From Rothia aeria (GTDB taxonomy: Bacteria; Actinomycetota; Actinomycetes; Actinomycetales; Micrococcaceae), in contig AP017895.1 of the NCBI GenBank assembly GCA_002355935.1, positions 1,364,001 to 1,428,000 on the forward strand: DNA of 64,000 bases, read 5' to 3'. The notes beneath the pieces were generated by a model, which did not search any database, had not been told where the DNA came from, and saw only the letters and a list, made by a program, of their open reading frames with translations. Below are positions 18,003 to 59,741 of the stretch, in pieces (the stretch's first letter is position 1; each line of letters starts with the position of its first letter). The translations under genes were made by a program, and so were the position numbers.

Positions 18003-19789
18003 ATGAGCGAACACGAAGAACCCACACTGTTTGAAGGCGCCATTAAGCCTAAACTTTCCCCGGCCTACCCCGGCCGTGCCCCGTGGGGAACCTCCGTCAG
18101 TTTACGTGCTTGGCAGACGGAGGCTATGAAAAATATTTTGAAACCAACCCGCGTGACTTTATGGCGGTGGCAACCCCAGGGGCCGGTAAAACCACCTTTG
18201 CCCTCACCCTGGCTCGTGAACTTTTTAGCCGCGGTGTGGTGCGTAAGCTCACCGTGGTAGCGCCCACCGACCACCTGAAAAAGCAGTGGGCGGATGCCGC
18301 CGCTAAGGTAGGCATACCGATCGATCCGAATTTTAAAAATGCCGACGTTCATGTGGGCCGCCAGTACAAAGGGGTGGCACTTACCTACTCCCAGGTGGCG
18401 AATAAGCCGCAGCTGCACGCCCGTAACACCGAGAACGACAAAACTCTGGTTATTTTTGACGAGATTCATCACGCCGGTGACGCGCTCTCGTGGGGAGACG
18501 GACTGCGGGAGGCTTTTGACGACGCCACTCGACGCCTCGCCTTGACCGGCACCCCGTTCCGCTCCGATGCTGCACCTATCCCGTTTGTCAACTACGAAGA
18601 AGACCACGAAGGGATCCGCCGATCCCGCGCCGACTACTCTTACGGATACGGTCCCGCTCTCAAAGACCATGTGGTGCGGCCGGTGATTTTCATGGCGTAC
18701 TCGGGACAGATGCGGTGGCGTACCTCCGCCGGGGAGGAAATGGCAGCAAATCTGGGGGAGGGATTCACCAAGGATGTGACCGCCCAGGCGTGGCGCACCG
18801 CCCTTGATGCGAACGGTGAATGGATACCCACTGTTTTGGCTGCTGCCGATAAGCGCCTCACCGAGGTGCGCCGTACCGTACCTGATGCCGGGGCGCTCGT
18901 GATCGCCACCGACCATGCTGACGCTAAAGCATACGCCGAAAAACTGCATGCTATCACGGGAGAGAAGCCAACTGTGGTGCTCTCAGATGACCGCGAAGCC
19001 TCCGCAAAAATTGACGAATTCCGTGAGAGTAAAAAGCGGTGGATGGTGGCGGTCCGCATGGTCTCTGAGGGCGTGGATGTGCCGCGCCTTGCGGTGGGTG
19101 TGTACGCCACCAGCACCAGCACACCTCTCTTTTTTGCTCAGGCAATCGGGCGTTTTGTGCGGGCCCGCAAGCGTGGGGAGACCGCCTCCGTGTTCCTGCC
19201 GTCGGTTCCGCAGCTGATGATGCTCGCTAACGATATGGAGCTAGAACGCGATCACGCCCTCGACCGCGGCGCCACCCAGGAAGAGATCGACCCCATGGTT
19301 GAGGGGCTGGATGATGCGGCGCTTGAAGAAGCAAACCGTGAAGAGCGAGCCTCGGAGCAGCTGGCTCGCGGTAAGTTTGAGGCAATAGGCTCGCAGGCCT
19401 CTTTCCACGGGGTGCTTTTTGATGGGGCGGAGTTCGCGTCGGGCGGGCTGGAAGTCGGTTCGGAAGAGGAACAGGATTTTCTGGGCATCCCGGGCCTGCT
19501 TGACGCTGAACAGGTCGGTACTTTGCTGCGGGCCCGTCAGCAGGAACATGCTGCCCGCCGCCCGGCCACCGCAGCCCCGGCGGTGGTGGACCACCGCCAG
19601 CTCAAAGAAATGCGTAATAAGTTGGCGAAAAACGTGTCGGCCTATTCGCTGAAAAGCGGTAAACCGCACGGGGTGATCCATAATGAGCTGCGTAAAATCT
19701 GCGGCGGCCCGGCGGTGGCTCAAGCATCAGCGGAGCAGATTCAGGCACGCCTTGATAAGCTCGCGGACTGGTTTGTCGGCAGGAGGTAA
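18003..19789 (+). pseudogene. DEAD/DEAH box helicase, frameshifted near the N terminus
   Basis: A ~595-residue superfamily 2 helicase. Motif I is ATPGAGKTTFAL, motif II is IFDEIHH, motif III is ALTGTPFRSD, and motif VI is AQAIGRFVRARKRGE. The first frame starts at ATG 18003 and runs to SLRAWQTEAMK; adding one A to the AAAAA near 18129 gives KKYFETNPRDFMAVATP and enters the long frame. A C-terminal ~120-residue Ala/Gln-rich region follows the core. Such proteins lie beside DUF3039 in Actinobacteria; the nucleic acid target is not known. Confidence 0.85.
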
Positions 19790-19813
19790 TGGCCCGGCTC
19801 GGTCTGTGAACGG

Positions 19814-20475
19814 TTAGGGGATGGCAAAAATCCAGTGTTCGTCACGAGCGGGAAGTCAACCGCCGTGCCATTCCATTTAACCTCAACGCCGTGGCCTTCG
19901 AGCACCGGGATAATGCGGTTTTGGATAATCGCGCAGTCTGCATCGTGAATCTCTTGGTCGCTTACTTCCCCAGTGTCGCTGAAGGTGCCGCAGTGCAGTT
20001 GGGCGGCGTCGTAGAGCAGTAGGGCCTCCGCACTTTCTGCACTGAGCGATACATACCCGTATCGGGTGGTACCGTCTTCGGGCCCTTCCTCGGGGATGCC
20101 GCACCAGTTGCCGTCCGGGTAAGCAATAATCCCCGTTCGTTCCAGCGCCTCGAAGGCACACACCAGGTTGCCTCGGCACCCTTCAATACCGATCTCTTTA
20201 GCATAGGCACGGCGGGAGGCAAGGAGCGCCTGAGCGTACTCTTCTAGCTTTTGGGGCGGGATGAGAATATGCCCTTCACCGTCGTCAAGGAACGGTTCAA
20301 AAACCTCCGTGTAGCACGCAATATCTGATTCGCCAACCAGCAGGCATGCCATGAGCCTGCGTTCTACGGTAGGCCGATCCATCTCTGGGATTGGCCAGCT
20401 GCGGGGTATAGGTGGGTCAATACGCGGTGCGCGCCATAGTTTTAGCTGTTCTGCAGTCACGTGAGGGCTACTCAT
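19814..20475 (-). pseudogene. DUF6891-like protein, paralogue 1 of 4
   Basis: First of four related minus-strand genes. The shared N-terminal box here is LKLWRAPRIDPPIPRSWPIP. Shared internal boxes are ASRRAYAKEIG, GTTRYGYVSLS and a C-terminal VLEGHGVEVKWNG. In this copy the cysteine box is reduced to NWCGIPEE. ATG 20475 gives an N terminus like the paralogues; a longer open frame upstream has no support. The frame as written runs past the family end, but adding one T to the T5 near 19825 ends it as GFFAIP with a stop at 19814. Function unknown; the DUF6891 name is from pattern memory. Confidence 0.6.
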
Positions 20476-20635
20476 GCTCCCAGTGTAACCGGGATACACA
20501 ACCATCATCCACGCATGGAAGGAATAATATTGTGCATAAAAGGCTGATTTATGGGGGCAAATATGCAAACTTATGCTATGGGGTATGTCGGTACTGGGTA
20601 AGCGTATGGTACCCGCAAGACCATTGTGCAGCCTG

Positions 20636-21363
20636 TTAGGGGATAGCAATGTATTTTATGTTCATGACATTAGGACAATAGGTAGTATCACCGCCCCACC
20701 GTACCTGCAGTCCGTGACGTTCAAGTACCGGAATAACGCGCTCTTGCAGAAATTGCTCCGTAACCCGGTGATGAGCTGCACTGCGTTCCTCTTGACTCAT
20801 TGACTCCCACTGCTGCTCAGAATACTGTTGGCGCAATGCTGGCGGGAAAATGCCGTGTTGAAGGTACACGCTTGCTGTTTCTGAAATATCAGCTGCACAC
20901 TGCTCGCTAAAAAATACATACCCGTACCAGTCGCGGGAGTCATCTGCCTCGTCGTAAATACTCCACGAACCGCACCTGCTGCAGCAGGAGAACGCCTCAC
21001 GCGCTACAACACCCTGACGATTGAGCTCTTTAAAAGCGAGAGAGATATTGCCCCAGCACTTTTCGATCCCCAGTTCCTGGGCATAGGCACGGCGGGAGGC
21101 GATGAGAGCACGGGCGTAATCGTCGAACTCCTCCATATGTTTCTCATCGCAATCCCACTTATCGCTCTCAGCAATAGTGCTGTCGTTCAAAATATCAACA
21201 TAGGAAAATGGATCACTGTCACCCCTGAAAAGCGTACCCACAGAACCTCACCCACGAATTCACTCACCTCATCAGGCATGCCCCAGTGGGCCGGAAGGGG
21301 CGGATCAATGCGCTGGGTGTACCAAAGTTTGAGCTGCTCATCAGTAATGCTAGGTGTAGTCAT
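20636..21363 (-). pseudogene. DUF6891-like protein, paralogue 2 of 4, frameshifted
   Basis: The N-terminal frame from ATG 21363 contains LKLWYTQRIDPPLPAHWGMP. It joins the longer frame ending at 20636 by adding one G to the CCC/GGG near 21238, giving EVLWGTLFRGDSDPF, which aligns with ELLWEMLLHGAS in paralogue 4. The C-terminal part has ASRRAYAQELGIEKCWGN, the full cysteine box CCSRCGSW, YGYVFFSEQ and ERHGLQVRWGG. The restored protein is ~242 residues. Like the other copies it is soluble with no catalytic motif I can name. Confidence 0.6.
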
Positions 21364-21468
21364 GGGGTTAACCTTAGACCACAAATGCATACTTGTCGTT
21401 GCACACGGTCAGTCACAAAACCGGTGATCCGCAGACCCTATAAGGAAGGAAAAGACAACACAACACCC

Positions 21469-21491
21469 GCACGGGGGGGCAACGCCCGTGC
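21469..21491 (-). terminator. Hairpin downstream of paralogue 3
   Basis: GCACGGG pairs with CCCGTGC around a nine-base loop. On the minus strand it lies about 50 bp after the stop of the gene at 21543-22214 and is followed by a GTGTTGTGTTGTCTTTT stretch, so it fits a terminator for that gene. Confidence 0.5.
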
Positions 21492-21542
21492 TATAGGTGC
21501 ATTACGAATAAGGATGGGCAGGCGCTCTACCTACCACAGGGG

Positions 21543-22214
21543 CTAAGGTGCAGCGAAAAACTCCGCGTTTTTCAGCACGGGAAGCTCAATGTACGTGCCG
21601 TCCCAATCTATCTCAACACCGTGGCGCTCAAAAACCGGGAGGATGTGCTGGCGGATCACAGCACTATTAATGCGGTTATACTCCGCATCACTCATCTCTT
21701 CGAGCTCTTCGCCCGTTACAAAAGCCCCGCAGCTGAGACGGGTCTCGCCATTTTTAATGAGTTCTTCGGCCTCTTCGGGGCCGAGCGACACATACCCGTA
21801 CCAGGTATGCCCATCTTGCGGAGCCTCATGCGGTATGCCGCAACACCCGAAATCGGGGTTCATCTTAACACCCTGACGTTCGAGCTCAGCAAGTGAAAGG
21901 TTCAGGGGAGTGCCCGGCACCCCGCCTAAGGCGGCAATATAGGCACGGCGGGAATCAATGAGCTGCCTAATATAGGCGCGAACTTCCCCGTCCCAGTCAG
22001 CGGAACCATAGGCATCCCTGAGTGAGGGAGTCTCCCAGAAGTAATACTCATAACGGGCCGTATCAGACTCACCGGTGCTGAGCAGGCGCCAGAGGGCATC
22101 TTCTAAGGTGCCACGCTCTTCACCGGTCACAGGCCAGTGCGCCGGGATAGGCGGATCGATACGCGGTGCGTACCAGCTGTCACGGAATTCTGTGGTGATG
22201 ATATCGGTGGTCAT
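21543..22214 (-). CDS. DUF6891-like protein, paralogue 3 of 4 (intact)
   Basis: The only copy with no sign of interruption besides paralogue 4: 223 residues ending AEFFAAP. Family boxes are SWYAPRIDPPIPAHWPV, DSRRAYIAALGG, HTWYGYVSLGPEEAEEL and ERHGVEIDWDGTYIELP. The cysteine box is reduced to GCCGIPHE, grouping it with paralogue 1. A middle insert (about residues 60-85) differs from all other copies. Minus-strand like its neighbours but with its own terminator-like hairpin, so it may be a separate unit. Confidence 0.65.
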   Translation of the reverse strand: MTTDIITTEFRDSWYAPRIDPPIPAHWPVTGEERGTLEDALWRLLSTGESDTARYEYYFWETPSLRDAYGSADWDGEVRAYIRQLIDSRRAYIAALGGVPGTPLNLSLAELERQGVKMNPDFGCCGIPHEAPQDGHTWYGYVSLGPEEAEELIKNGETRLSCGAFVTGEELEEMSDAEYNRINSAVIRQHILPVFERHGVEIDWDGTYIELPVLKNAEFFAAP

Positions 22215-22671
22215 AGTTTCAGTGTAACCGGATATTTAATGCATGAAAAGCGTATATTTCTATAGAAACTTTAGCTAAATAAAAACTTTTTACAGAAATA
22301 AATGCTTCTCGAACCAAAAGAGGTCTTTAAAACTATAGACGGTTATTCATTGAGGATATCCTGCCACCAGATTATGAGCCAACATTTTGCGGCTGCAGCA
22401 CCGACATCTGCCGGTATTGCTCTTCCGCTAAGGCTGGTGGAGCGCATCGTGCCGCTCTTGCCGAATAGATGCTGTAATATCCAGTGTGATAAATTCCTGT
22501 TATTGCCTCAGTCAGCCTGTGGTGTCCTCCCGATCAAGTGGGGTGGTATGACGATAAGGCACCGAGCTGGTCTTTAGCTAGTCATATAATGACGTTTGTT
22601 CGCTGTAGTTTTGCTCCAGTAAAATTGTAGTAAATAATAAACATTATTATAATTTTTGCAGGAGATGAAAT
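22215..22671. other. AT-rich stretch with degraded coding fragments
   Basis: No intact gene. On the plus strand, fragments look protein-like only if frames are switched: one from ATG 22302 (LLEPKEVFKTIDGYS) continues in another frame as a Cys-rich piece with FCGCSTDICRYCSSAKAG, and a later frame gives VGWYDDKAPSWSLAS up to about 22630. They may be remains of one decayed gene or of several. I cannot assign a family. Confidence 0.3.
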
Positions 22672-22863
22672 ATGAGCGATAAAATAATATAAAATACTAC
22701 GAAAAATTATTATGTTGGAAGATGAAATATATGATTCTGATGCCCTGGGTAACTATGATGCTTTTATTTTAAAATGTATAAAATTCGCCGAGAAAAATAT
22801 TATTCCATTAAGCCAGTACAGGAAAGAACTGGAAGGTGTAATTAAACAATGCACAGACTTTTA
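22672..22863 (+). pseudogene. Small AT-rich unknown gene A
   Basis: ATG 22672 has GGAG nine bases upstream but stops after six codons. Adding one base near 22688 joins it to a frame that begins around ATG 22712 with MLEDEIYDSDALGN and ends QYRKELEGVIKQCTDF, giving ~64 residues. Base composition is far more AT-rich than the surrounding chromosome. The stop overlaps gene B (ATG 22849), so the two may be coupled. Function unknown; a small immunity or antitoxin role is only a guess from context. Confidence 0.35.
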
Positions 22864-23138
22864 GAAGGCAGAATTGGTAGATCTGAACTGGAAAAATATT
22901 ATATCCAACTAGGTAGAAAGATTCGCTTGTCAGGAAGCTTAGATAAAAAGAAAAAGAAATACATATTTTTATGTCTATTTTTCTTGACTCCAATTTCTTG
23001 CAAAATACGGCACCCGAGGAACAGCAAGATAGCGATATTTGTTATCTGTTATGTAACCTGTATAGGATAAAAGATGATCTTGAATTATGCAATACATTCT
23101 ATAGCAGTATTTGTTCGGTAGGGGCAGATGACGCATAA
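22849..23138 (+). pseudogene. Small AT-rich unknown gene B, frameshifted
   Basis: ATG 22849 overlaps the end of gene A. The frame LLEGRIGRSELEKYYIQLG runs into an A-rich tract near 22945; adding one A there leads to EIHIFMSIFLDSNFLQNT and a natural C terminus stopping at 23138. Without the addition the frame continues as a hydrophobic stretch to 23070 that looks artificial. The restored product is ~96 residues, acidic at its C terminus. I do not recognise it. Confidence 0.35.
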
Positions 23139-23228
23139 GTGAATATATAACTATCGGTACCCACAGGGAAACCAGTGCCCAACTGACGCAATAATCGGAT
23201 CTGCTCGCCAGCACGCCTGCGCCCTATT

Positions 23229-23468
23229 TTATTGAGGGATAAAATGCCTGCCGGTCGTAACGTAATCCATGGGGGTGAAATGTGTGGGAAGCTCCGCATT
23301 TTCAATAGCAAAAATATAGTTTCGATAAAATAGGCTATGCACTGAACGGTCATCTATTTTTAAAATATCTTCTTCAAAGTTTCTGGCAAGTTTCAACTGT
23401 GCGTTTTCCTTGTCAATATCCTTCCCAAGAGCGTAAAAAAGACCGATAATAATAAACAATAGCAACAC
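23229..23468 (-). CDS. Small putative membrane-anchored protein in AT-rich block
   Basis: A 79-residue frame starting with one hydrophobic segment (LLLFIIIGLFYALGK) followed by a charged domain (LKLARNFEEDILKIDD). Its GTG start at 23468 immediately follows an out-of-frame TAG. If the upstream SUKH-like gene has lost one base in its TTT run, that gene would stop exactly there and this gene would start at once, a natural coupled pair. Alternatively it is the frameshifted end of that gene. Function unknown. Confidence 0.35.
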   Translation of the reverse strand: MLLLFIIIGLFYALGKDIDKENAQLKLARNFEEDILKIDDRSVHSLFYRNYIFAIENAELPTHFTPMDYVTTGRHFIPQ

Positions 23469-23806
23469 CTAAATTGGTGCAATGATGAGTTTATAAACAG
23501 TGGTTCTTGAATATCTGAATAATGAAACGGGATAAGCCATACTTCTTTGTTTTTATTGACAGCAAAGAAACCATTGCTATTCTTTCCAAAAACAATAAAT
23601 TTATCTTTATTACTGTTTTCGACAATAACTTCTTCATCTTTGAAATTTATGAATTCAAATTTATCTTTATAGTAATTCTCCAACCTTGAATATTCGTTGC
23701 TTGCCATATCATTTAACAACTCGGAAAATGAATAAATTTGCTTATTGAAACTTTTTGAAATCTTATAGTCCGTACCTTTTAAATCACTCTCATTAATAAT
23801 CATCAA
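23393..23806 (-). CDS. SMI1/KNR4 (SUKH)-like immunity protein
   Basis: An AT-rich gene of 137 residues in the frame as written. The central part, DKFIVFGKNSNGFFAVN followed by EVWLIPFHYSD and then FINSSLHQF, follows the SUKH pattern of a beta-sheet core and a late 'ssS..eF' box. These proteins often neutralise secreted toxins. The last 25 residues after LHQF look unnatural; adding one T near 23471 would end the protein there (~112 residues). No toxin gene is seen next to it. The family call is tentative. Confidence 0.45.
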   Translation of the reverse strand: MMIINESDLKGTDYKISKSFNKQIYSFSELLNDMASNEYSRLENYYKDKFEFINFKDEEVIVENSNKDKFIVFGKNSNGFFAVNKNKEVWLIPFHYSDIQEPLFINSSLHQFRCCYCLLLSVFFTLLGRILTRKTHS

Positions 23807-23863
23807 ATATTCCTTATTGGGCAGATTCCTTCTGCAGATTTGCGGCTCATATCTGGTAAATTG

Positions 23864-24574
23864 CTACGGGATATGGCTAAACTGCGATGAGAATACCTGT
23901 GGCCGTACAGAATAAGAGCCTTCCCAATCTACCCATAATCCGTGCTGCTCGAACACCGGAAGTACCTTTTCGCGCAATAGTTTTACACTCAAACTCTCGT
24001 ACTGCTGCTCTTGGGTTTGGGCATCAAGTGCGTCCCACTGCGGCTCAGTAAAATATGCATCCAGAAAAACCCCATAATTGAGGCCTACCGATCCGCTCTC
24101 GTATGCTGATTCAGCATCCTGTTCGTGGTAGAAAACGTACCCGTACCAAGTGCGTGAATCATCTCTCTCATCCCAGATTTCGGCTGAACCACACGAACCG
24201 CAACAGGTAAAACACTCCCGTGCCACCACGCCCTCATGCGCTAAAGCGTCAAATGCCAACGTTAAATCATTATTCCGAGGCTCCAGTCCAATAGCTGCAG
24301 CATAGGCGCGGCGTGCGTTAATAAGCTGCTGGGCGTACTCTGTTATCTCTTCCCTGTATTTTTCACCCAAGCCAGCGTTCTCATCGGGCAAAACATAATC
24401 AAATACTTCCACATACGCTTCCGGGGTAGATGCGCCGTGCAGAAGCATCTCCCACAGAAGCTCTTCAAGCTCGGTGCGGCTCTGGTCGTTGAGCCCCCAA
24501 TGTTCTGGGAGAGGCGGGTCAAGACGCGGGGTATACCAAAGACTGAGCTGATGATCGTCACACTGCTTATTCAT
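23864..24574 (-). CDS. DUF6891-like protein, paralogue 4 of 4 (intact)
   Basis: 236 residues from ATG 24574 (an ATG at 24580 is also in frame). Family boxes are LSLWYTPRLDPPLPEHWGL, NARRAYAAAIGL, RTWYGYVFYHEQDAESA and VFEQHGLWVDWEGS, ending FSHIP. It has the full cysteine box CCGSCGSAEIWDE, like paralogue 2, suggesting a metal site shared by these two. The two cysteine-rich copies (2 and 4) differ from copies 1 and 3 across the same region. It is separated from the others by the AT-rich block. Confidence 0.65.
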   Translation of the reverse strand: MNKQCDDHQLSLWYTPRLDPPLPEHWGLNDQSRTELEELLWEMLLHGASTPEAYVEVFDYVLPDENAGLGEKYREEITEYAQQLINARRAYAAAIGLEPRNNDLTLAFDALAHEGVVARECFTCCGSCGSAEIWDERDDSRTWYGYVFYHEQDAESAYESGSVGLNYGVFLDAYFTEPQWDALDAQTQEQQYESLSVKLLREKVLPVFEQHGLWVDWEGSYSVRPQVFSSQFSHIP

Positions 24575-24597
24575 ACCCATATATTAGCTGTTGTGCC

Positions 24598-24717
24598 GGG
24601 GCGCTGCGCTGCTAGGTCCAGCAGCACTGGCGGCACCTGGTGACAATGCGGGGTACTCCGGTCCGTACTGCACGCCATTCGAACATGCAGATATGTACCA
24701 CCAGCTCCCCTAGCGTA
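24598..24717 (+). pseudogene. Fragment duplicated from the SLH-repeat protein gene
   Basis: About 118 bp here match 26957-27075, the signal-peptide end and mature N terminus of the SLH-repeat protein, with roughly ten differences. The fragment still reads AALAAPGDNAGYSGPY and stops at a TAG near 24717. There is no start codon or downstream coding part, so it is a remnant of a second gene copy or of a recombination event. It lies between paralogue 4 and the protease. Confidence 0.8.
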
Positions 24718-24835
24718 GCTATTGAGCCGGGCGGCAGGTAGCACTGGGAGAGATTTTACTGTTAGCTTTCGTATGATGTATAATTTTCGTCAGATAGATG
24801 TATCTATATATATTCACTCAAGTTTTGAAAGGCTA

Positions 24836-26816
24836 ATGATGGTCTTTGCGTTAATCAGTGATAAAAAGTTAAGTATTAGAAAGCTAGTTTCTGTAACTAC
24901 TTTAGGATTTTTTGTTTGGGACGTCATATGTGCCTGCTCTTAGTTTTGAGTCATCTAGTGCCAGTAGCTCACTAACAAATATCAAGTACAGTTTTTCTGA
25001 CTCATCACAGGGTTTATATAACCAATTTATTGTGACGTTTTCACATGGCTTTGTTGCCCAGCATGCTCCTAATACGGATACGTTGCTAAGCAACATTGAG
25101 TCTAATAATATGGTGGATGCAATTAAGTATAATTTTGCCGATAAATTTGGCTACACTGTTTCCTATAGTCATACGATTGCTATAAAAAACTCTGTAGTAA
25201 TTAATATATAAATTATATTAGTTCAGACAATATTGATTCTTTTATAGAATCAGCTAAAGATATCTCTGGTGTTGAAGATATTTTTCCAGACTATAATATA
25301 GATTATCAGGGAATCTCTGACCCTGAGATGAACGAGTCTTCTCAGAATCAACAAGAAGATACTCCTGTACCTGATCTTTCTGCATATTCAAAAACTATGT
25401 CACTCCAAATGATGAATACTTTGATAAGCAATGGGATTTACATGGTGAATATGGAATTAATGTAAAGTCCGCATGGCAACGCTCCCTGGGTGATAACGTT
25501 ACAGTTGCAGTTATCGATACTGGTGTCAATCATCATCCTGATCTGGTTAATAATATTGTTCCGGGTTACGACTTTTTATCTGATGCTATACAAGCAGACG
25601 ATGGTGATGGGCGCGACTCAGATCCTTCGGATAGTGCGATGGTGCCTAAAAATGGAATCTGTTCTAATGGGCGAAAAGCAGAAAGTTATATGCGTTGGCA
25701 TGGTACTCATATTGCGGGTACTATCGCAGCTTCAGCAAATAATAAATTGGTATATCTGGGATTTCTCCCAATGCGAAGATTCTGCCTGTACGTGCTTTTG
25801 GGCCTTGTGGAACTAGGTTCTCGGATGTTACTGATGCGATAAAATGGGCTGGGGGTCTGAAGGTGCAAGATACTCCAGAAAATAGGTATCCTGCTCAAGT
25901 TATTAACCTGTCGTTTGGCTCATATTTAAATTCTGGCAGTAAATGTTTTAAAGGATATCAGGACATATTTGATGAATTGCATGCTAAGGGTATCGTGGTT
26001 GTAGCATCTGCTGGTAATAAGAACCTTGACGTCAAATATTTTACCCCTGCAAATTGTAATCATGTTATTTCTGTAAGTTCTACTACTCGAATGGGTGAGC
26101 GGCCTGTTGCCTCATACGGTTCTAGCGTTAGCATAAGTGCTCCTGGAGGGACTCATGCTCCTAATCAAGGTATATTTTCTACTTTTAATACAGGAATGAT
26201 TTCTGTTGGAGAGCATAACTACAGCGAGAACGCGGGTACTTCTATGGCTGCTCCTCATATTAGTGCTATTGCTGCTTTGGCTAAATCAGTCAACCCAGAT
26301 GCTACTCCTGATCGTATACTTTCTGCGATGCAGAAAAGTGCTCAAAACCGTCCTATACAAAACTGTGATCAGTATAGCTGTGGTCCTGGTATTGTAGATG
26401 CGGGCAAGACACTGGAATATCTGGACAATCCTGTAAAGAACCCTGATCCATGGAATAATGGTCCAATATTTTACGATATACATAAAAACATGCCATTTTA
26501 TCAAGAGATTCAGTGGATAGGAGCGCAGGGTATTACTACTGGATACCCTGATGGCACATTCCACCCAGCAGATAATGTAGAACGTGGCGCAATGGCAGCG
26601 TTTTTCTACCGATATGCAGGACAGCCAGAGTATGTGATGCCAAGCACTTCTCCATTCAGGGATGTTTCGGTTGGCAGCAGTTTCTATCGAGAGATTACCT
26701 GGTTGCATTCTACTGGTATAGCTAATGGGTGGCAGGATGGGACGTACCGTCCTGTAGACCCCATCCGCCGTGATGCAATGGCAGCTTTTATTTATCGCTA
26801 CGCTCACAAGAAGTAA
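24836..26816 (+). pseudogene. Secreted S8 (subtilisin) family serine protease with SLH-like repeats, frameshifted
   Basis: A secreted subtilase of ~660 residues if four single-base losses are corrected (near 24910 in a T-run, 25205, 25392 in an A-run, 25754). Order: signal peptide from ATG 24836 (GAAAGG upstream), an I9-like propeptide (YNQFIVTFSHGFVAQ...), and the catalytic domain with Asp in VAVIDTGVNHHPDL, His in WHGTHIAGTIAAS and Ser in GTSMAAPHISAIAAL. Two SLH-like repeats end the protein (ITTGYPDGTFHPADNVERGA; IANGWQDGTYRPVDPI), probably for cell-wall attachment. GC content is visibly lower than in flanking genes, suggesting transfer. All catalytic residues are present. Confidence 0.8.
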
Positions 26817-26895
26817 ATACGCAGTGTGCGCGGTGTATCTAAAGGTCAAAATACGTTAGGGGTGTGCCGCACGCGCTATGGTGAAAGAGATAACA

Positions 26896-27921
26896 ATGAA
26901 AAAAGTAACTACTCGTAGAACCTCTCAGGCAGTAGGTACTGCCATGTGCGCTGTTGCACTGGGAGCTACGCTGCTAGGCCCAGCAGCACTGGCAGCACCT
27001 GGTGACAATGCGGGGTACTCCGGTCCGTACTGTGCGCCATTCGAACATGCAGATATGTACTACCAGCTTTTCCCCATCACGTTCACCGCTGCGGCTATTG
27101 AGGATGCGAAAGCCCAAACCGAGCATCGTGGGTGGAACAATGAGCAGATACACCAGTACTTGGTGGCCCAGCTGAGTCAGAAACTCACCGAGGATAACTA
27201 TCCTGTGAATATCCAGTACTACAGCTACATACAATCTGGAGACAGAAACTATGCTGAAGTAGAAGTATCCCACTTTGTCACCGCCGCGCAGGGCAAGGGA
27301 CTTCTGCAGAAACTGCTCTCATACCCCACCGTTCAAGAAGCTCAGGTGCAGCCTGTCCCACACCCAACCGTTGACGGCCCCTGCCGATTTAGTGATGTGC
27401 CCCAAAATCATCCGTTCTACGAAGAAATCACGTGGCTAGAGTACCGAAATATCACCACCGGCTGGGCCGATGGTACCTACCGACCGCTGAATAATATTGA
27501 GCGCGGGGCGGTTGCTGCTTTCTTCTACCGGCTGGCGGGTTCGCCGGAGGTTACCTTGCCCGCCGCCTCACCTTTTACCGATGTGAACCCCTCGCACCAG
27601 TTTTACCATGAGATTGTGTGGATGCATCAGCAGGGTCTTACTACCGGCTGGGCCGATGGCACCTACCGACCGCAAGACGCGGTTACTCGCGAGGCAATGG
27701 CCGCATTCTTCTACCGTTACGCTGGTAAACCTGACTATGTAGTGGTTGGGCCAGTTTTTAAGGACGTGCCTCATGATGGCGCATTCTACCGCGAAATTAA
27801 CTGGCTACGTTCAAGCGGCATTACTACCGGCTGGGCCGATGGCACCTACCGCCCTAGTGAGCCGATTCACCGTGACGCAATGGCTGCGTTTATCTACCGC
27901 TACGCGCATCTTGACACCTAA
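26896..27921 (+). CDS. Secreted protein with three S-layer-homology repeats
   Basis: 341 residues from ATG 26896. A signal peptide ends near LLGPAALAA. The unknown ~110-residue N-terminal domain (about 35-150) has two to three alpha/beta segments. Three SLH-type repeats follow, each with the core ITTGWADGTYRP or LTTGWADGTYRP and a closing AAFFYR or AAFIYRY. They probably hold it to cell-wall polymers. An ATG at 26878 is also open but would precede the signal peptide. It follows the protease on the same strand, shares its repeat type, and has higher GC. Its N-terminal domain is not one I recognise. Confidence 0.82.
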   Translation: MKKVTTRRTSQAVGTAMCAVALGATLLGPAALAAPGDNAGYSGPYCAPFEHADMYYQLFPITFTAAAIEDAKAQTEHRGWNNEQIHQYLVAQLSQKLTEDNYPVNIQYYSYIQSGDRNYAEVEVSHFVTAAQGKGLLQKLLSYPTVQEAQVQPVPHPTVDGPCRFSDVPQNHPFYEEITWLEYRNITTGWADGTYRPLNNIERGAVAAFFYRLAGSPEVTLPAASPFTDVNPSHQFYHEIVWMHQQGLTTGWADGTYRPQDAVTREAMAAFFYRYAGKPDYVVVGPVFKDVPHDGAFYREINWLRSSGITTGWADGTYRPSEPIHRDAMAAFIYRYAHLDT

Positions 27922-27944
27922 ATCATCCGCATATTACACGTGCA

Positions 27945-27999
27945 GAGGCGACATTCTTACCGGGGCATACTACAGGGAACCCACTAAGAATGTCGCCTC
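27945..27999. terminator. Bidirectional hairpin between convergent genes
   Basis: GAGGCGACATTCTTA pairs perfectly over 15 bp with TAAGAATGTCGCCTC around a 25-base loop. It sits between the SLH-repeat gene (plus) and pncA (minus), so it can serve both. No long U-run follows on either strand. Confidence 0.7.
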
Positions 28000-28034
28000 G
28001 TACTCTAAAAGCGCTCACGATGAGCGGGACGCGC

Positions 28035-28660
28035 TTACAGCGCCTGCTTGACCGTGATGCCCTCGTCCTCCATCTCGGCGATTATTTCGTCGAGCTTATT
28101 CTCGTGCACGGGGGCCGTCAGGTCGATCAGCACACGGGTCTCATACCCGGCATCCACCGCATCCTTAGCGGTTGCCAGCACACAGTAGTCGGTGGCGATA
28201 CCCACAATATCGACATCCTGTATCTCGTGTTCATCCAGCCAGTCTGCCAGCGGGGTTTTCGGGCCTTCGTCATCCAGTGTGGCGCCTGGCTCATGCTCAC
28301 CGGTCATGACCGATTCCTCGGGGCCTGTAGCCCCTCGAACCCTGAATATGCAGCCTCATACCGGCCCTTACGGAAATACGCTTCGATGTAGTCGGTATCA
28401 AGATTCGGGTGAATCTCGGCTCCTTCGGTATTCGCCACGCAGTGCACCGGCCAGGAATCCACAAAATCCGGGGTGTCAGAGAAATGCGCGCCCGGGTCAA
28501 TATGCCAGTCCTGGGTGGCCACAACCGCCTCGTACCGGTGGTGGTTATCCTCAACGTATTCGCTAATGAGCGAGGCAACCTTGGCTCCCCGGTCGGTTGC
28601 CAACGCCCCACCGGCGCAGAAATCGTTCTGAACATCAACAATAATGAGTGCTTTTGCCAT
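28035..28660 (-). pseudogene. pncA: Nicotinamidase, frameshifted
   Basis: Nicotinamidase converts nicotinamide to nicotinate in NAD salvage. The N-terminal frame from ATG 28660 has LIIVDVQNDFCAGGALA with the catalytic Asp, a metal-binding DWHIDPGAHF, and the catalytic Lys in YFRKGRYEAAYSGFEG. Adding one C in the CCCC near 28319 joins it to the second frame, which has the nucleophile in GIATDYCVLATA. The restored enzyme is ~209 residues. It lies 57 bp after pncB on the same strand, forming a salvage operon. Confidence 0.88.
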
Positions 28661-57887: not shown

Positions 57888-58720
57888 ATGAGCAGCACTG
57901 CCGAGAAAGCTATTGCCCTTATTAAACAGCTCAATGCTGAAAATCCGTTACCCGTTATTGAGATTAAGGTATCTAAGGCTGCTGAGCCGCTGCCGGTGAC
58001 CGTTTCAAAGTTCGGGGGAGTGCCGTATCTGCCCGCTGGGGTGGAGGCACCCACCGACTCAGATGGGAACCCAATGGCCATGATCGCGCAGATTAACTGT
58101 GCTGAACTGCCCGAGAACCCCATTTACCCGCCTACCGGTATGGTGCAGTTCTGGATAGGGGCGGTGACGATTGGGGATTAGGCGGCGAAAATGACCGCCG
58201 CGTTATCTATTACCCTCAGCTGGGTGAGGCGAACCCGGAAGCGACAGCAACTATGAATGACGATGAACATGATATTTGTCTGCCGGTGGAACACGAATGC
58301 GCACTCGAATTTGTGGTGTTGGAGCATGAAATATTCTCCCCATGCAAGGATTCAGTGAACCACCCGCTGATTGAGAAGTGGAACCAGGCATACCCGGAAC
58401 AGACCATTAAGTCTCTTTTTGACCTTGACGACTTTGAGGACGGCGATGTTCTGGAAGAGATTGAGAAGTTCACCGGTTCACGGGATTACTCGAAGATCGG
58501 CGGTTTACCAGACTTTGTGCAGGGCGACCCGCGTTACTACCATGAGAATGCTGAGGAGCATGGGTGCACCGTGAACCTGCTGACGATGGACTCAGTCTGG
58601 GATGGCGAAGAATATTTGGTGATCTGGGGTGACGGCGGTACGGCGAACTGGCTGATTGCTCCGGACCGGTTGGCAGCACGTGACTTCTCACAGGTCTTCT
58701 ATGAGTGGTCATGCGGCTAG
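57888..58720 (+). pseudogene. DUF1963 (YwqG-like) protein 1, frameshifted
   Basis: YwqG-like proteins are soluble, of unknown function, and in some bacteria lie near toxin genes. The first frame from ATG 57888 (GAAGGAG upstream) contains VSKFGGVPYLPAGVEAPTDS and AQINCAELPENPIYPPTG. Adding one G to the GGGG near 58157 gives WIGGGDDWGLGGENDRRV and then YYPQLGEANPEA, joining the second frame, which ends in LAARDFSQVFYEWSCG at 58720. Restored length ~277 residues. It is about 70% identical by eye to the next gene. Confidence 0.75.
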
Positions 58721-58867
58721 CGGTCTCTGTAAAAACACGGGCTGACCTCCTGGCACATTCTGGTGCCGAGCGCTGCCCCTAACCGGGGTTTGTCAGATGA
58801 GGAAAAGCGGGTAATAACGAAATCGGTTGTGTATTGGCTCGGGAGAGTGCTCTCATTAAACCAGGGC

Positions 58868-58885
58868 GCAGGTGGAAACACCTGC
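58868..58885 (+). ncRNA. 5' leader hairpin with GNRA loop, DUF1963 gene 2
   Basis: GCAGGTG pairs with CACCTGC around GAAA, 47 bp before the gene's GTG start. Compared with 57828-57845, stem pairs A-T to G-C and C-G to T-A have changed on both sides while pairing is kept. Confidence 0.6.
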
Positions 58886-58932
58886 ACAACCCAGCAATGA
58901 CCATAGATAGAACCGTTGAAGGAGAGCTTCCT

Positions 58933-59741
58933 GTGAGTGATATTGTTGAGAAAGCTGCTGCCCTTGTTGAAGAGCTCTATGCTGAAAACCCATTACCTGC
59001 TATTGGGATTAAGCCCTCTGAGGCTGCTGAGCCGCTGCCGGTGACCGTCTCGAAGTTCGGGGGAGTGCCGTATCTGCCCGCTGGGGTGGAAGCACCCACC
59101 GACTCGGACGGGATACCAATGGGCATGATTGCGCAGATTAATTGTGCTGAGCTGCCGGAGAATCCTATTTATCCGCCCACCGGCATGGTGCAGTTCTGGG
59201 TGAGCACAAACTCAGGGTGGGGATAGATAAGGAAGAGGACCACCGTGTGATCTACTATCCTCAGCTGGGTGAAGCGAACCCGGATGCGGTAGCGACCTGT
59301 GAGGATCGTGAGCGAGACTTCTGGTGGCCTATCAAACATGAGTGTGCACTCGAATTTACGACACTTGGGCGGGAAATATTTGCCCCGAACGATTCGATAA
59401 ATCACCCGCTGATTGAGAAGTGGAACCAGGCATACCCGGAACAGGCTATTACGAGTCTTTTTGACCTTGATGTATATGATGTGGAAGAAATTGAGGAAAT
59501 TACTGGTTCAGGGGACTACTCAAAGCTTGGCGGTTTACCGCACTTCATGCAGGGCGATCCACGCCGCGAAGAGCCTGAAAACTCTGATATCCGCAGGCGT
59601 ACCGTGAACCTGTTAACGATGGATTCGTATGGGAACACGGTGCTCTGGGGCGATGTTGGTACGGCGAACTGGCTGATTGCTCCGGACCGGTTGGCAGCAC
59701 GTGACTTCTCGCAGGTCTTCTATGAGTGGTCATGCGGCTAG
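58933..59741 (+). pseudogene. DUF1963 (YwqG-like) protein 2, frameshifted
   Basis: Tandem duplicate of the preceding gene. GTG 58933 follows GAAGGAGAGC. The first frame includes VSKFGGVPYLPAGVEAPTDS and AQINCAELPENPIYPPTG and stops after NSGWG; adding one G to the GGGG near 59219 leads to IDKEEDHRVIYYPQLGEAN and the second frame, ending in LAARDFSQVFYEWSCG at 59741. Restored length ~269 residues. Divergence is concentrated in the middle (residues ~95-125 and ~190-225), while both ends are nearly identical. Confidence 0.75.

Follow-up and report, generated by a model that had tools for sequence, protein, structure and literature searches.

We have analysed a window of 64,000 bases (positions 1364001-1428000) of the single-contig genome of Rothia aeria, which measures 2,588,680 bases. 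At 19.7-24.6 kb of this window lies an array of four paralogues of the protein family DUF6891 (Pfam PF21831), all on the minus strand. The copies differ in how much they keep of a conserved polar site of eight residues, which is complete in copy 4. The array comprises the following features:

19741..20475, minus strand: copy 1, a DUF6891 paralogue (domain at 19814-20475), retaining C127 alone among the eight site residues
20636..21241, minus strand: main piece of copy 2, with the three cysteines and Q154 kept and E134, H152, D155 and R226 gone
21187..21390, minus strand: N-terminal piece of copy 2, in a different frame from the main piece, with an ATG at 21363
21543..22214, minus strand: copy 3, a DUF6891 paralogue with C126 and C127 kept of the eight site residues and the predicted fold retained
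22215..23863, no strand assigned: stretch between copies 3 and 4, of low guanine plus cytosine (GC) content and with short open reading frames (ORFs); the ORFs scanned have no family match over the cut-off
23864..24580, minus strand: copy 4, a canonical DUF6891 with eight of eight site residues and a structural model with a predicted local distance difference test score (pLDDT) of 90.0

Between copies 3 and 4 the GC content falls to 29% at 23393-23806, and low-GC ORF fragments without a family match above the cut-off occupy both strands at 22712-23806.

Membership, site and predicted fold of the copies

A preliminary description of this DNA had proposed four related minus-strand genes. The ORFs and the pairwise local alignments bore this out, with all six pairs scoring 33-71 standard deviations over 200 shuffles (copy 2 represented by its main piece). 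The amino-acid identity among the copies is 33-42% (copy 2 represented by its database relative P0017). The shared elements that had been listed are also present, namely the N-terminal box (LWRAPRIDPP, LWYTQRIDPP, SWYAPRIDPP and LWYTPRLDPP), the RRAYA helix (as RRAY[AI]), the YGYV strand and the late HG box (as HG..[VI].W.G). The ORF of copy 1 continues to 19741, past the end of a helicase gene at 19789, which it overlaps. Copy 2 is not one ORF but lies in two pieces in different frames, which we have searched separately.

The family name DUF6891 given there proved correct in a profile search of the proteins. The main piece of copy 2 (67.1 bits) and copy 4 (101.1 bits) exceed the curated whole-protein cut-off of 27 bits, and copies 1 (21.8 bits, E-value 1.9e-4) and 3 (20.1 bits, E-value 6.2e-4) lie under it. 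The array copies share common descent with the canonical members, since their clade is nested within the Rothia clade (support 100/100), the alignment scores exceed the shuffle controls and the model of copy 3 matches a viral DUF6891 protein. Copy 4 resembles canonical DUF6891 in length, predicted fold and site, and copies 1-3 resemble it by descent. A search through the full text of 5.39 million open papers turned up no mention of DUF6891.

We have defined the canonical site as C126, C127, C130, E134, H152, Q154, D155 and R226, and counted 29 columns as conserved (at least 85% invariance in 46 canonical rows). Copy 4 keeps all 29 columns, a fifth copy at position 575540 of the same genome 23, copy 3 15, and copy 1 and the protein P0016 14 each. 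The eight site residues are complete in copy 4 and the fifth copy; copy 2 keeps four (C126, C127, C130 and Q154, from the tree alignment with P0017), copy 3 two, copy 1 one and P0016 none. Of the four-cysteine box described earlier, the conserved part is three cysteines, CCxxC, the extra cysteine of copy 4 not being family-wide. A distant family member (L015) has no CCxxC box, and the cysteines are thus not universal in the wider family.

Copies 1 and 3 have in common the scaffold residues G49, R90, L113, G147, Y148, G170, H213, G214 and W219. Together with P0016 they also share the derived states P130, P134, E154 and C169 and a new motif, G[IV]PxExPxDG, and in all three C130, E134, H152, Q154 and R226 are substituted. 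Structure prediction, which had been suggested as a way to look for a common fold and a metal site, supported the first part: the copy 3 model (pLDDT 91.2, predicted template modelling score 0.84) has an order of elements resembling that of copy 4, and its top structural match in the viral library is a DUF6891 protein (E-value 8.5e-4). The polar site, in turn, is incomplete in copies 1-3. The copy 4 model matched DUF6891 proteins of Fadolivirus and Edafosvirus (E-values 5.4e-6 and 4.6e-5) and a Hyperionvirus protein (2.1e-4), with weaker matches to iridovirus and phage proteins. No convincing PDB match was obtained for copy 4, whether by sequence, by Foldseek or by VIA. The fold matches revealed no enzyme fold, which is weak evidence.

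Age, distribution and chromosomal setting of the array

In the phylogeny, a single clade with support 97/92 unites the array copies with P0016 and with P0017, which represents copy 2. In this clade copy 4 branches off before copy 2, followed by copy 1 together with copy 3 and P0016. At identical residues, the six array pairs use the same codon at frequencies of 0.35-0.48, versus 0.36-0.37 expected by chance; for the other 15 pairs the values are 0.29-0.51 versus 0.36-0.39. The synonymous positions thus look saturated. Because identical residues share codons about as often as chance predicts, the duplications are old, and saturation together with the remaining 33-42% identity points to an old divergence under constraint for much of that time. 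This speaks against the rapid divergence assumed in the preliminary description, although no rate was obtained.

Within the genus, 6 of 35 genomes, counting the present one, have the family. Each of the five others has a single match above the cut-off and no array; in one of them (G019) the single copy is broken and an extra weak match of 35 residues lies elsewhere. The four-copy array is absent from the other 34 genus genomes searched. The number of copies thus varies across the genus, with the array in a single genome of the 35. In a phylum sample the family occurs in 9 of 396 genomes; the present genome is one of them, and the other eight all have a single match. In an order sample the count is 16 of 396; 13 of the 15 others have one match and two have two matches, with three of the 15 falling only below the cut-off. 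One of these pairs, from another genus, lies in a single ORF of 1,090 amino acids (L168:5054-8326), with two DUF6891 stretches by Pfam. The part of this double protein that was inspected has no CCxxC box.

A scan of species genomes gave 211 stretches encoding relatives, of which the best 80 were kept. None of 105 family loci (including two pairs that repeat one contig) has a second full DUF6891 copy within the stretch retrieved, one of them (L108) having a weak piece of 82 amino acids. Canonical DUF6891 is thus mostly one gene per genome, and four tandem copies, three of them site-incomplete, occur only in this genome among our samples. The family was also found in seven viral contigs, six plasmid records and one phage record. 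The protein clusters hold 625 members for the copy 2 type, 582 for copy 4 and 173 for copy 3; the copy 3 type is rare, with a word-limited search of 5.8 billion proteins giving only itself and one relative of 62% identity.

The array occupies a variable segment between a conserved helicase gene (18083-19789) and pncA. We have taken the helicase as core because it is present in 34 of the 35 genus genomes; it matches PADLOC PbeA models (best E-value 2.4e-21, residues 16-160). The gene order helicase-pncA-pncB-clpS-murI is retained in all eight relatives fetched, and DUF6891 was undetected by tblastn (1e-8) in the helicase-pncA gap of any of them. The gaps there range from about 30 bases to 5.6 kb, and the larger ones contain other ORFs, which we take to be, for example, glycine-rich proteins and an insertion sequence-like pair. 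The segment here also contains what are presumably subtilase-like and SLH-like genes. Its features are:

19790..28034, no strand assigned: segment from helicase to pncA, 8.2 kb here and 0.03-5.6 kb in the eight relatives
24599..24706, no strand assigned: direct repeat of 108 nucleotides, 94% identical, just upstream of copy 4, with its partner at 26961-27068 in the SLH-like gene

The two repeats bracket the subtilase-like gene and are a sign of rearrangement.

The fifth copy is flanked by a GDPD gene and a presumably TetR-like gene, as is its counterpart in the closest genome (G009, 2,506,025 bases). Among the 21 ORF pairs of the block, these two DUF6891 genes (L022:9573-10382 and L025:9713-10462) are the least alike, with 36% identity against 56-99% for the other 20. 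The G009 protein groups with the R. mucilaginosa type in the tree. The low identity amid similar flanks, with this tree position, suggests that one of the two genes has probably been replaced. In the R. mucilaginosa group itself, the single DUF6891 gene shows identities of 96.0, 89.5 and 86.0% from locus to locus (the 86.0% being that of a broken copy); for the two genes downstream of it the values are 94.7-94.8, 86.3-89.2 and 93.3-94.5%. DUF6891 is therefore close to normally conserved in this group.

The frame break of copy 2 may reflect either an error in sequencing or a feature of the strain. P0017 has 242 amino acids, is unbroken and 99% identical over the query, and belongs to the cluster of 625 sequences; two other matches of copy 2 (P0018 and P0020) differ at their ends and look broken in different ways. 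In this assembly pncA is likewise split into two frames (28035-28307 and 28304-28660). It is a single ORF in seven of eight relatives; in the remaining one it was not located with the motif used. Several further genes of the window look split, in the way indel errors would give.

Possible roles of the array

The preliminary description had read the array as an immunity or defence repertoire, partly on account of SUKH-like neighbours. No SUKH match was found in the window proteins scanned (6 and 10 in two sets, with one in both), and the four copies themselves gave no SUKH/SMI1_KNR4 match at E-values up to 1 and none of the PADLOC families at E-values up to 0.1 (copy 2 as its main piece). The genes at 58.2-59.7 kb, which we guessed were those called SUKH-like, belong to DUF1963 and lie 34 kb from the array; these DUF1963 genes are duplicated (58253-59741), with at least one in two pieces.

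We have then searched for linked toxins. A same-strand upstream neighbour is present at 52 of the 105 family loci, within 400 bases at 51 of them. We chose 43 of these neighbours after clustering and scanned 40, which include purL, citrate synthase, pheT, GDPD, a phosphatase, regulators and, in a viral contig, ArdC. Toxin families were missing from those listed for these 40 (25 of 28 listed in one scan), and likewise from those listed in a scan of 125 neighbours (25 of 111); these linkage scans cover a minority of the DUF6891 family. Elsewhere in the genome, RHS repeats exceed the cut-off in two regions (217-231 and 1520-1538 kb; L178 and L179), and DUF6891 is absent from both regions as fetched. 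ORFs near these repeats match SUKH-1 and CPCC over the cut-offs and RHS and YwqJ-deaminase under them. The two regions are likely a toxin-immunity repertoire which, as a guess, may come from other oral bacteria.

The layout, tandem paralogues in a variable slot, speaks for the proposal; the lack of toxin families among those listed for the neighbours, of PADLOC matches for the four copies and of SUKH matches in the proteins scanned, together with the old divergence, speaks against it. A fixed copy number across the genus and a clear enzymatic fold had been named as results that would count against it; neither was observed, with a copy number that varies between the genomes and fold matches that revealed no enzyme. 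A diverged paralogue array is by itself not evidence for immunity, a role which is possible for this one.

SUKH proteins have a viral parallel. The likeness of DUF6891 to that superfamily would be in ecology only, as both form paralogue arrays and DUF6891 also occurs in giant viruses, an iridovirus and perhaps phages; the four array copies differ from it in lacking a SUKH/SMI1 match.

We tentatively favour, at nearly even chances, a tandem expansion of old date whose derived copies would have been put to new use as binding scaffolds. DUF6891 expanded in tandem long ago within the variable helicase-pncA segment, and the conserved polar site was lost step by step, whereas residues of the scaffold were retained, as was the predicted fold in copy 3. 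Copy 4 would keep the ancestral function of the CCxxC/E/H/QD/R site, perhaps metal binding. The derived copies would have given up the site and used the helical and ferredoxin-like scaffold as a cytosolic binder of a different partner, a foreign toxin being one candidate among several. Several points weigh against this. We have found no binding partner in this analysis, and binding is something we infer. We divided the residues into site and scaffold post hoc, with the data already seen. Copy 2 (as P0017) is misaligned at the cysteine box in the column count, so that its value of 20 of 29 is unreliable, and for copies 1 and 3 the position of the gap at 134-135, on which two alignments disagree, is uncertain. 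The tree places the fifth copy beside the array with weak support (94/47). P0016 has neither C126 nor C127, and in the present assembly copy 2 is interrupted, both as expected under decay.

Such decay, in which redundant copies of an accessory gene drift to loss, would also fit the step-wise site loss, the broken single copy of the Rothia relative G019 and the unequal cluster sizes (625, 582 and 173). We consider it unlikely, because three ORFs are still open though synonymous sites are saturated, a derived motif is common to copies 1, 3 and P0016, and the fold of copy 3 is confidently predicted; the split of copy 2 may moreover be a sequencing error, as pncA is split too and the Rothia aeria JCM 11412 assembly is described as built from PacBio reads (PMC5201055). 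It is rather unlikely that the paralogues each neutralise a separate toxin coming from neighbouring cells, with no toxin gene of their own. The layout fits the homogeneous polyimmunity loci described by Zhang et al. 2012 (PMC3482391) as tandem, distantly related paralogues of one family, here four copies at 33-42% identity. The variable slot, the protein of another genus with two DUF6891 stretches and the low-identity exchange in the slot of the fifth copy are in line with this, as is the tested toxin-immunity pair RdnE/RdnI described for R. dentocariosa (PMC12483513), which no search we made linked to DUF6891. Unlike such loci, DUF6891 showed no toxin partner or immunity annotation in this analysis, and the toxin-free upstream neighbours and neighbour families listed, the two RHS-repeat regions without DUF6891 and the near-normal conservation in the R. 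mucilaginosa group argue against it. Very improbable, finally, is that the four copies are all enzymes that carry out a single chemistry with altered specificity, copies 1 and 3 having rebuilt the site with other residues, for example the new C169 common to them and P0016; in all three proteins C130, E134, H152, Q154 and R226 have given way to other residues, and no fold match names an enzyme, although this is weak evidence.

A broader reading, speculative and rather improbable, is that DUF6891 would be an unrecognised conflict scaffold of bacteria, phages and giant viruses. Its site-bearing ancestor would have been repeatedly amplified, as tandem genes in Rothia aeria and as tandem domains in a protein from another genus of the order, giving rise to binders stripped of the site that would neutralise foreign toxins or effectors. 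Copy 4 combines a confident predicted fold and a strictly conserved polar site with relatives in viral contigs and giant viruses. In the Rothia array a single genome offers a natural gradation from the complete to the stripped site, so that the role of this site can be put to a direct test.

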